Source: Microlunatus sagamiharensis (GTDB lineage Bacteria > Actinomycetota > Actinomycetes > Propionibacteriales > Propionibacteriaceae). From it: 64,000 nt of DNA. Below the pieces are notes generated by a model. That model saw only the letters and a list, made by a program, of their open reading frames with translations, was not told where the DNA came from and searched no databases. A program made the position numbers and the translations under genes. The stretch lies in NCBI RefSeq assembly GCF_900105785.1, contig NZ_LT629799.1, forward strand, positions 2,604,001 through 2,668,000, read 5' to 3'. Of this stretch, positions 27,875-30,924 are shown piece after piece (positions within the stretch are counted from its first letter, which is position 1; each line of letters begins with the position of its first letter).

Positions 27875-30097
27875 TCAAACTTGAGAGCCTTGCTCCTTCT
27901 TAAGTAGCCCGTTGGCTACGGCTCGGTCAAGAACGCTCACGGCGCCGCCGTCGTCATTGTTCGTGAATACACGTACGTCGCGTTCGGCTCGGCTTAAGGC
28001 GAGATATAGCAATGAGAGAAGCCGACTCTTTTCACTCAGGGCCGTGAAATTGTCGCCCATGTCAGGAATTCCAGCCACAAGCACTGTGTCAAACTGCAGG
28101 CCGGCCAGGTATTCAGCCGGACCAACCACAAGCCCGCGGGCACGACTGGCTAGCGCTTCGACGTCTCCTCGACTCGTGATTGTCGATACATGGTGCTTCT
28201 TCGATTCGCCGAGTCGTGCGGCAAGCGCGCTGTATCTGCGCCACTGCTTACTCTCGACGATGGCGAGCGCGAGTCGACCTCGGGGGTATAACTCCTGCAC
28301 CGCCCGCGCGATATCGCTTTCCTCACCCGCGGCCGTTCCTGCGCAGATCAGACGAGGAACGGCTCCACTCTCCTTTGAGGATTCAACATTCGAGAAATCG
28401 ATCTCCCAATCGTGGCCAAGGTCTAGCGTCGGGAACTCGTGGTGGACATGTTTCACCAACCGAAGAATCTCAGGTGTGAAGCGGTGAACTGTCGTAAGTT
28501 CATACTGAGCAACGTCGTCTAATAGCTCATCGCTTGCGGAGGAAGACCGAGTTTCGTCCGCCGCCACCCCGATGAAGGCTTCAGATGGTGATTGACGAGG
28601 ATCAACAGCCATGAATACACGAGGATAAATTGATGTATCTCTAGAAAGATAGTGGAGGACTTGGCGCTCGAGTGGACTGAAGAGATGGAACTCATCAACA
28701 AACAGTAGATCGTAGCCTTGGCTTCTACGGCTTCGATTCCACGAGTGAGTCTCAAGGTGGCTCAGAAGGTCAACGAGAACTTGGTCAGAGGTTAGAAGCG
28801 CTCGCCGATCGAGGCTCTCAACGTACCGGGAGTATATGGCGTAGACGACTTTAAGATCGCCAGGAGACTCAAGTGGCAACATCCAGGTCGCTCGCGAAAG
28901 TTGCAGATACCGGAGTTCTGCACCCACTCCTGGGAAGATCGCCGAGGCGCCGATGACTGAACCGAACTCAATTGACAGATCCCAGGCGAGCGCGAACCGA
29001 TCGTCGATGTCCTCGGAGTCGATTCGACGCCGCAGCACCTCCGAGGCTTGCGCCCGGAAGGTTACCCAATCCGTCTCCTTGAACTCAGTAAGGACGTCCA
29101 GGATCTCATCGAGTTGGGCCTGCTTTCCACTGAAGCTATCTTCACCGATCAGACTAAAACCAGATTCGTCGTTGACATATTGGGGCGACAGGGTGCGGGC
29201 GATCTCGAGTAGTGGAAAGACGTCGATCTCTGGAATTGGTGCGCCATTGATGGAATCGATCGAGTTCGAGATCTGAGCCGCGAGCGACCAACTGTGGGTC
29301 ACTATTAGCACTCGAGGCGACGATCCGCGAGATCTCGAACTTGTAACTTCCCGGATCGCTTTTAGTGTCAGAGCGAGGGTTTTTCCAGATCCGGCTGGAC
29401 CCCTTAGTCGAATCGACTTGTCGACAGGGGCGTCGACAAACTGACGCTGGTCGCGACTAATAGCTGCGTGCCATTCGTCGTACGTCCAGCCCTTAGTGAG
29501 AGACGACTCAATCGGGGCGAGCGAGATCTCGACGTCGGAATTTGGTTTAACGACCTCAAGTTCACTCCGCGCATTTACCTCCTGAACGGCTCCCTTAAAG
29601 TCTTGATCCCAGCCTTTTGGAAGCTCCCGCGGAACGAGCGCGAATCTGTCCAGGTCAAGTTCGCGCTCGTTATCGGTCGACGTCCAGAAGACCACATCAG
29701 TCGGCTCGCCTGCGAGGGGTTCGGCTATCCAGCGCGTTGACCTAGGGTCCGATCTTGCATCAGCATAGAAGGCGACCAAACTGTTGTACTTATAAGAGGT
29801 CCAGTTCCTCGGTAGCTGAATTCCGCCAGGCGCTTGTGCCCGTTCGACAAAAGACGCCATCCGACTCAATACCGAAGCTCGCGAAGAACCGAGGCCGTCG
29901 GGAACAACCACCTCTACTTCATTCAATGGCCGCATGACGACGACGCGCGGACCAGAAATCGAGTCACCTCTCGCGACGATAAAGTCAACCAGCGCGCCGG
30001 TCCTAAGTAGCAGCGTACTTGACGTACCGATAGCGTCTGGCGATAAGCCCGTCGCTAGTTCTTTCAGCGCGCCGATCGTAGTGATAAGTGGCTTCAC
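27875..30097 (-). CDS. SF1 (UvrD/Rep-like) helicase of a two-gene island
   Basis: A 740-residue protein. Residues 1-205 are a domain I do not recognise. Helicase motifs then follow in order: Q-like 'SRDQRQF' (214), Walker A GPAGSGKT (233-240), Walker B with DEFH (468-471), motif III 'MAVDPRQSP' (497-504), motif IV-like 'TTVHRFTPE' (535-543), motif V region 'LVVGPAEYLAGLQFDTVLV', and motif VI 'ALSRAERDVRVF' (700-711). The set is complete, so ATPase/translocase activity is expected. G+C (about 52%) and codon use differ sharply from the surroundings, which indicates transfer. The GTG start overlaps the upstream gene's stop by GTGA. A defence role is plausible but unproven; DNA repair is the alternative. 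Confidence 0.85.
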   Translation of the reverse strand: MKPLITTIGALKELATGLSPDAIGTSSTLLLRTGALVDFIVARGDSISGPRVVVMRPLNEVEVVVPDGLGSSRASVLSRMASFVERAQAPGGIQLPRNWTSYKYNSLVAFYADARSDPRSTRWIAEPLAGEPTDVVFWTSTDNERELDLDRFALVPRELPKGWDQDFKGAVQEVNARSELEVVKPNSDVEISLAPIESSLTKGWTYDEWHAAISRDQRQFVDAPVDKSIRLRGPAGSGKTLALTLKAIREVTSSRSRGSSPRVLIVTHSWSLAAQISNSIDSINGAPIPEIDVFPLLEIARTLSPQYVNDESGFSLIGEDSFSGKQAQLDEILDVLTEFKETDWVTFRAQASEVLRRRIDSEDIDDRFALAWDLSIEFGSVIGASAIFPGVGAELRYLQLSRATWMLPLESPGDLKVVYAIYSRYVESLDRRALLTSDQVLVDLLSHLETHSWNRSRRSQGYDLLFVDEFHLFSPLERQVLHYLSRDTSIYPRVFMAVDPRQSPSEAFIGVAADETRSSSASDELLDDVAQYELTTVHRFTPEILRLVKHVHHEFPTLDLGHDWEIDFSNVESSKESGAVPRLICAGTAAGEESDIARAVQELYPRGRLALAIVESKQWRRYSALAARLGESKKHHVSTITSRGDVEALASRARGLVVGPAEYLAGLQFDTVLVAGIPDMGDNFTALSEKSRLLSLLYLALSRAERDVRVFTNNDDGGAVSVLDRAVANGLLKKEQGSQV

Positions 30098-30924
30098 TGA
30101 TACCTCTCTAGAAGAACCGACGAGTGCAGATCGCGAAGTTCCTCGTACTCTTCTGGTAGCCCGATCGACATGAACACGAGACCGAAACGTTGAACAAGCG
30201 CGTGAGAGTATTCCGTCTTGAGACGCGAGATACGCCGGTAAGATTTTTGGAGTCGAGTCGGCTGAAGCGCGATCTCTGGCTCGTAGACCTGTTCAAGGTG
30301 CCGGAGGTAGACGAAGTAACCATTCTCGTGCGAAGGTCCCAATGCCGAGACGAAGAGGGCATCTCCGGGTGGTTGCGAGAACGGCGAACGCAGACTCTCC
30401 TTGATCGAAGCAAGCACGTTCTTTCGGGATGGTGCATTAGGAAGTGATAGCTGGGCCGCCACGATGGCATTGACTGCCGCATCAAGATTATCAACATCGT
30501 CCCGAAGGTTGTGCAGCCCGGCGATAAGGGAGAACGCCTTCTTCCGCTCACCTTCGCTCAACTCAAGCGCGGTGGCGATCGACTCGGGCTCGCTTTCGCT
30601 CGTCCACTCCTGTAAGCGATCATTCGAGATGCCCTGAAGTGGAGAACGAGGGACTGCGGATCGCAGACTACCAAGCATCTTTAGTTGCAGGCGCCGACGG
30701 ATTTTTGGCAACTGTAGGTGTAGTAGATACTCATCACTTGAGAGTATGGGTACACATGTGATACGCCCTGCGTTTTTATCGTGCGCGAGATCGCAGTCGG
30801 CTGTGATTACTAACAAGTGGCGCTTCCAGAGAGACGCGCTGGCGTCGACCGCTTCAAGTACGTCACCTTGCCGTACCGCAGTCGACGCATGCACAAGGTC
30901 GTACTCCCGCAAGATCTCAGTCAC
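30094..30924 (-). CDS. Unknown protein coupled to the SF1 helicase
   Basis: A 276-residue soluble protein with no family I can name. Near the N-terminus it has 'VRQGDVLEAVDAS' and 'LLVITADCDLAHDKNAG', a beta-strand ending in a conserved-looking T-A-D-C-D-L with a nearby His. Next comes a helical middle (about 120-190) with 'AGLHNLRDDVDNLDAAV', and then 'NGYFVYLRHLEQVYEP' and a basic stretch 'LQKSYRRISRLKTEYSHAL'. There is no signal peptide or membrane segment. The start is a GTG with GGAGA upstream, and the stop overlaps the helicase start, so the two are made together. G+C is about 50%. It may be the sensor, effector or nucleic-acid-binding partner of the helicase; this is inference. Confidence 0.8.
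   Translation of the reverse strand: MTEILREYDLVHASTAVRQGDVLEAVDASASLWKRHLLVITADCDLAHDKNAGRITCVPILSSDEYLLHLQLPKIRRRLQLKMLGSLRSAVPRSPLQGISNDRLQEWTSESEPESIATALELSEGERKKAFSLIAGLHNLRDDVDNLDAAVNAIVAAQLSLPNAPSRKNVLASIKESLRSPFSQPPGDALFVSALGPSHENGYFVYLRHLEQVYEPEIALQPTRLQKSYRRISRLKTEYSHALVQRFGLVFMSIGLPEEYEELRDLHSSVLLERYQ

Follow-up and report, generated by a model that had tools for sequence, protein, structure and literature searches.

Three described systems that include a helicase invite comparison with the locus treated here. Helicase+DUF2290 is described as a two-gene system of a helicase and a small protein that inhibits phage T7 and is found in hotspots of satellites and prophages (Rousset et al. 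2022, PMC9122126; the system is also treated in PMC11637435 and PMC10952713), an action on DNA ends is proposed for Gabija (PMC12407980), and in Hachiman a sensor helicase holds back a nuclease, with HamA being a DUF1837 protein and HamB being likened to Hel308/Ski2 (PMC12278908). We analyzed a stretch of 64,000 nucleotides from Microlunatus sagamiharensis (the window), in which two minus-strand open reading frames (ORFs), each with a GTG start codon, encode an upstream protein, UP, and a downstream helicase, HEL (Table 1). UP-HEL is a real and mobile two-gene family that has escaped annotation, and the fold predicted for UP resembles that of a toxin. The family probably represents a so far unnamed form of helicase-plus-effector immunity, and we estimate at about 0.48 the probability that it moves horizontally as a defense against phages or plasmids. 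An earlier description of this DNA, made without database searches (the sequence-only reading), had proposed a new two-component defense or DNA-processing system; the mobile, unannotated pair stood up to analysis, while its defensive function is something that we infer only, from a thin context.

UP and HEL are inherited jointly, and the claim that they travel together held at every locus checked. The scan of species genomes returned 19 HEL relatives, all with UP directly upstream (19/19) and with one UP match per genome. In the plasmid collection, UP occurred in three records, each time with HEL alongside, and HEL occurred in 79 records, including 71 from Escherichia and 2 from Shigella; all six that were examined of these 79 contained UP by profile, and the upstream 262-amino-acid protein of the E. 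coli plasmid matched the UP profile with an E value of 1.5e-9. The UP and HEL trees agreed closely over 29 pairs (r = 0.968) and over 14 of the closest pairs (r = 0.81), with none of 2,000 permutations reaching as high a value in either comparison; these mirror trees left out the incomplete loci L013 and L040, L033, which nearly duplicates L034, and sites fetched a second time. Because both proteins are conserved together across three phyla (Actinomycetota, Bacteroidota, and Pseudomonadota), the pairing is not due to chance. A third obligatory gene was ruled out, since among 24 clustered neighborhood records (22 loci, the window, and the own site fetched again) no cluster other than UP and HEL was common to all, and the next one, which was dehydrogenase-like, appeared in 7. 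Two individual copies deviated from the usual form: the HEL of an Undibacterium plasmid looks broken because it is split over two ORFs in different frames (L023:8795-11037), and the copy on a Shigella plasmid may be broken because its UP ORF (L033:6562-7104) does not reach the length seen in the E. coli plasmid L034 and stops well before HEL.

The pair is also horizontally mobile and sporadic. UP was present in 4 of the 394 genomes of the host's class, its own included, and in 1 of 247 genomes of the phylum of L020 (Hymenobacter), the one being the seed itself. HEL was matched at an E value of ≤0.001 in 4 of 20 genomes of the genus: its own, one with a relative of 38% identity at a different site, where UP was present too, and two with matches that spanned only about 65 residues. 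With a single other genuine relative in 20 genomes, we rejected the idea of a genus-wide housekeeping locus, which the sequence-only reading had named as a refuting result. The two short matches (L031 and L032) did not match the UP or HEL profiles, and neither did the DUF2290 locus L036 discussed below. The G+C content of the pair was more than 2 points under that of its flanks in 24 of 25 relatives, a tally of 25 loci from which short contigs (L004, L007, and L010) and others were left out. Among 5,426 complete E. coli genomes, 120 matched the E. coli pair at the DNA level and 109 had at least 80% of it; all 121 match places were on plasmids and none was chromosomal. The E. coli and Shigella plasmid records examined had IncF-type replicons, and two of the six examined HEL plasmids were typed as conjugative. 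In two Streptomyces genomes (L011 and L012) the same two conserved genes lie upstream of the pair, which suggests that these copies occupy a common chromosomal site.

In the host genome, a single contig of 4.405 Mb, UP has one copy. The overlapping minus-strand arrangement described earlier was confirmed (ORFs 27875-30097 and 30094-30924), as was the low-G+C island, with values of 0.554 for the pair and 0.744 for the flanks; the figure of 50 to 53% given earlier for the pair was slightly low. The flanking genes, named by eye, are aldehyde-dehydrogenase-like and quinone-oxidoreductase-like. Both are kept in two same-genus genomes (L042 and L043), with identities of 94%/91% for the left protein and 91%/82% for the right one, and the DNA alignment of the window with both genomes stopped where the left gene ends and picked up again where the right gene begins. 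The boundary is thus otherwise intact, as had been claimed, and the proposed comparison of related strains for presence or absence found the slot without the pair in both. The slot at this core boundary is variable, holding the pair in the window and, in these relatives, a 516-codon ORF of native G+C with FG-GAP-like repeats seen by eye (L042:3176-4726; similar DNA in L043). Because a different gene fills the same slot in two relatives, the pair either replaced another gene or was replaced by one. A search for repeats bounding the island at both ends found none.

Tested against Gabija, Hachiman, and Helicase+DUF2290, the two genes gave no confident joint match to a named system, as had been expected. 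Helicase+DUF2290 has the nearest architecture, with a helicase and a small partner in both, and the PADLOC model "Helicase" (707 amino acids) gave a weak in-register match to HEL (E value of 0.015), the assignment of that model to Helicase+DUF2290 being a guess. However, PF10053 matched neither UP (E values up to 10) nor five of its relatives (E values up to 1), and it was not found in the host's own genome. A DUF2290 locus was found in 1 of 149 actinobacterial genomes (L036), with the helicase preceding DUF2290 and with DEAQD as motif II by eye, whereas UP precedes HEL and motif II of HEL is DEFHLF. A megablast search with part of L036 yielded nothing useful. Membership was rejected, since partner, gene order, and motif II all differ. 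Gabija resembles the pair in that one of its two proteins is a UvrD-type helicase, and two short stretches of HEL matched the PADLOC GajB models (best at residues 212 to 278, E value of 4.1e-5), with better matches for HEL relatives (2.6e-14 for the E. coli relative and 4.8e-13 for another). In contrast to Gabija, HEL carries some 205 extra residues as an N-terminal domain, and membership was rejected because the adjacent gene was always UP and not an OLD/TOPRIM GajA (GajA was not searched for elsewhere in the genome). The likeness to Hachiman is limited to the proposed logic of a sensor helicase restraining a small effector. UP had no HamA/DUF1837 match in Pfam, PADLOC, or NCBIfam, and no HamB model was among the 18 PADLOC families listed for HEL at E values up to 10; this membership was rejected as well, UP not being HamA and HEL being of the UvrD rather than the HamB type. 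The reported lack of GajA and HamA features in UP was thus correct.

Compared with MazF, PemK, Kid, and CcdB, UP lacks significant sequence similarity, contains a predicted helical insert some 120 residues long, has different invariant residues, and is accompanied by a helicase instead of an antitoxin. HEL differs from UvrD, PcrA, and Rep in its motif II (DETHLF in the E. coli and Paraburkholderia relatives), its extra N-terminal domain, and its constant small partner. In open-licence literature, searched by titles and abstract openings among the matches listed, we found neither a MazF/PemK-plus-helicase system nor a UvrD defense pair like UP-HEL, and the defense discoveries made with language models in the same literature did not describe the pair. 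The main text of the DefensePredictor paper contained zero mentions of helicase, MazF, PemK, or SH3.

Structure prediction, which the sequence-only reading had recommended, gave a MazF/CcdB fold for UP, predicted with good support, and a UvrD-type structure for HEL. In an alignment of 31 UP sequences, the window included, C44, D45, and R208 were present in all 31, K50 in 30, and D188 in 29, so that the T-A-D-C-D-L motif pointed out earlier does contain two invariant residues. UP was not matched in Pfam (E values up to 10), PADLOC, NCBIfam, or PHROGs, its relatives likewise had no family, and phage records yielded no UP match. PF02452 (PemK/MazF) matched neither UP nor five relatives, and in the host's own genome it matched three other genes. 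Searches of a viral fold library and of PDB sequences were uninformative. HEL is a UvrD-type helicase by Pfam and by structure and is related to repair helicases. Its superfamily 1 (SF1) motifs, identified by eye on the alignment, are intact in the UvrD helicase domain, which agrees with the complete SF1 helicase described earlier, and its motor is apparently intact, judging from these motifs. The N-terminal domain stayed unrecognized, with no Pfam stretch listed in residues 1 to 205 (a sequence-level search; the domain was not folded on its own).

Defense and phage genes accompany several copies. A type I restriction enzyme adjoins the pair in Hymenobacter L020, in which the gene directly downstream of HEL (L020:12026-12853) matched the PADLOC candidate PDC-M19B with an E value of 1.9e-44, and in Amycolatopsis sp. 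WAC 01376 the pair is closely followed on its downstream side by a UG22 reverse transcriptase (DRT) and the HEPN partner of that enzyme (L003:12811-14999). A weak Mrr match was found near the pair in L015 and an integrase at most 3 kb upstream of it in L009. We compared 15 chromosomal loci with long flanks and 15 control regions on the same contigs, placed by hand and not at random: 97 neighbor ORFs gave 12 PADLOC families at E values of ≤1e-25, compared with one, mad3, from 106 control ORFs. Excluded from the defense count were mad3, which also occurred in a control, and the DolB and PDC-M37B matches of L008, which were to one Clp-ATPase-like gene. The defense-gene neighborhood of the pair is suggestive, not significant. 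Additionally, four distinct IMG/VR contigs, whose viral status is given by the collection, contain the pair. It lies close to an integrase and a terminase in L027, to baseplate and tail proteins in L025, and to RusA, an O-like replication protein, and an endolysin in L028, while L026 has an integrase and a metalloprotease only.

By analogy with Hachiman and Gabija, we propose that sensing by HEL leads to activation of UP. HEL would survey DNA and be triggered when an invader exposes abnormal ends, single strands, or replication intermediates. UP might bind HEL through its helical insert, the HEL N-terminal domain, or both, would be kept inactive by HEL, and would be released or switched on once HEL fires; it could then arrest growth of the infected cell by RNA cleavage or by poisoning another central target. 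The UP-HEL complex, its trigger, its enzymatic activity, its target, and defense itself are what we infer here. In its most specific form the proposal is tentative: a new kind of immune complex would join a toxin-fold (MazF/CcdB) effector, whose rebuilt active site would comprise C44-D45, K50, D188, R208, and R231, to a UvrD-type motor that senses DNA and gates the effector via a dedicated docking domain.

Several observations weigh against an immune function or against UP as its effector. The evidence consists of sequence and predicted structure. The best Foldseek E value of the UP model was 0.24, with zero matches at ≤0.001; the UP profile was not significantly similar to PemK/MazF in hhalign, and MazF was not listed by the UP profile search of solved-structure sequences. 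The catalytic residues of MazF are an Arg and a Thr, and in a by-eye alignment to the PemK proteins of the genus their UP equivalents are R35, which is variable, and L61; because these residues are not conserved, RNase activity of UP is unproven. Most chromosomal copies sit among ordinary genes (by eye), and the phage genes on IMG/VR contigs are not independent support because the collection is viral. Enrichment near defense genes, suggested earlier as a check, amounted to certain defense neighbors at 2 of the 15 loci and at 0 of the 15 controls, too few for significance.

The absence of the MazF catalytic pair also favors a second defensive reading, in which HEL would be the effector, a processive motor disrupting invading DNA or its replication, and UP a non-enzymatic adaptor that loads or restrains it. 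CcdB, whose fold is the one predicted for UP, is a gyrase-binding poison and not a nuclease, and the motor residues of HEL are conserved; however, UP has polar residues that are invariant or nearly so across phyla and suggest an active site rather than a surface used simply for binding, and we regard this reading as rather unlikely. An accessory of mobile elements for DNA processing, replication, or repair, or an anti-defense module, with no immune function, would suit the kinship of the motor with repair helicases and carriage on viral contigs and on plasmids, including conjugative ones, but fits poorly with sporadic copies that are often chromosomal among ordinary genes and with the lack of any further gene accompanying the pair throughout the 22 clustered loci; we consider it improbable. 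Least probable is a toxin-antitoxin-like stability module for plasmid and prophage maintenance, with UP toxic alone and HEL as its antitoxin or regulator, for despite the predicted fold of UP and carriage on plasmids and viral contigs, a conserved ATPase some 740 residues long would not be a typical antitoxin and many copies are single chromosomal loci.

In all three UP plasmid records, Multi_ubiq, E1 (DUF6791/ThiF), and DUF6527 genes occur near the pair, on varying sides and strands. This trio was not taken as a functional partner: none of the other clustered records contained the E1 or DUF6527 cluster, and two of the three plasmid records come from one species and have similar trios but different pair lineages. 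The literature on DUF6527 and multiubiquitin offered nothing useful. Beside the trio in L021 lies a gene for a 1,133-amino-acid protein with an IrrE-like metallopeptidase, a UvrD helicase, and a PD-(D/E)XK nuclease (L021:1959-5360), and a related gene is present in L022. The lambda-like viral contig L028 also carries a kinase-like and PP2C-phosphatase-like gene pair, named by eye (L028:13321-14789). At the home locus, an inverted repeat is probably a terminator common to HEL and its convergent neighbor. A promoter scan of the locus was no richer than shuffled sequence, and an Rfam search gave nothing useful.

Table 1. Features of the UP-HEL locus in the window and the ubiquitin-like genes of the plasmid records
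Feature	Position	Strand	Basis
UP-HEL two-gene module, low-G+C island	27875..30924	-	ORF list, overlap, G+C
UP, 276 amino acids, predicted MazF/CcdB-fold protein with helical insert	30094..30924	-	ORF; AlphaFold2; Foldseek; VIA-align
UP residues 15-62, first half of predicted MazF-like barrel	30739..30882	-	AlphaFold2, VIA-align
UP T41-A-D-C44-D45	30790..30804	-	C44 and D45 in 31/31 sequences
UP residues 63-183, predicted helical insert	30376..30738	-	AlphaFold2
UP residues 184-254, predicted second barrel half, with D188, R208, R231	30163..30375	-	AlphaFold2, VIA-align, alignment
GTGA stop/start overlap of UP and HEL, 4 bases	30094..30097	-	Sequence
HEL, 740 amino acids, UvrD-type SF1 helicase with N-terminal domain	27875..30097	-	ORF; PF00580, E value 2.6e-10; structure
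HEL residues 1-205, N-terminal alpha/beta domain, no database match found	29483..30097	-	Pfam, structure, PDB sequences
HEL Walker A, RGPAGSGKT	29378..29404	-	7/9 positions invariant in 19 sequences
HEL motif II, FVDEFHLF	28679..28702	-	Invariant in the same 19 sequences
Inverted repeat, 16-nucleotide arms, 94%, 8-nucleotide loop	27818..27857		Between convergent 3' ends of HEL and neighbor
Ubiquitin-like trio	L021:5442-7769, L022:11133-13460, L023:2600-5224		Pfam for L021; record annotation for L022 and L023

Beyond the sequence-only reading, the analysis added the predicted fold of UP, its invariant residues, the tests against named systems, and the homologues on E. coli plasmids. Because a distant homologue resides on E. 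coli plasmids, the idea can be tested quickly in E. coli. If it is true, an unannotated two-gene system, ranging from Actinomycetota to Bacteroidota and Pseudomonadota, would join the helicase-sensor class of bacterial immunity, and a toxin fold would have been reused as an effector, tying classic toxin-antitoxin folds to helicase-sensor immunity. The system may then also bear on which phages or competing plasmids the hosts of the E. coli plasmids admit.
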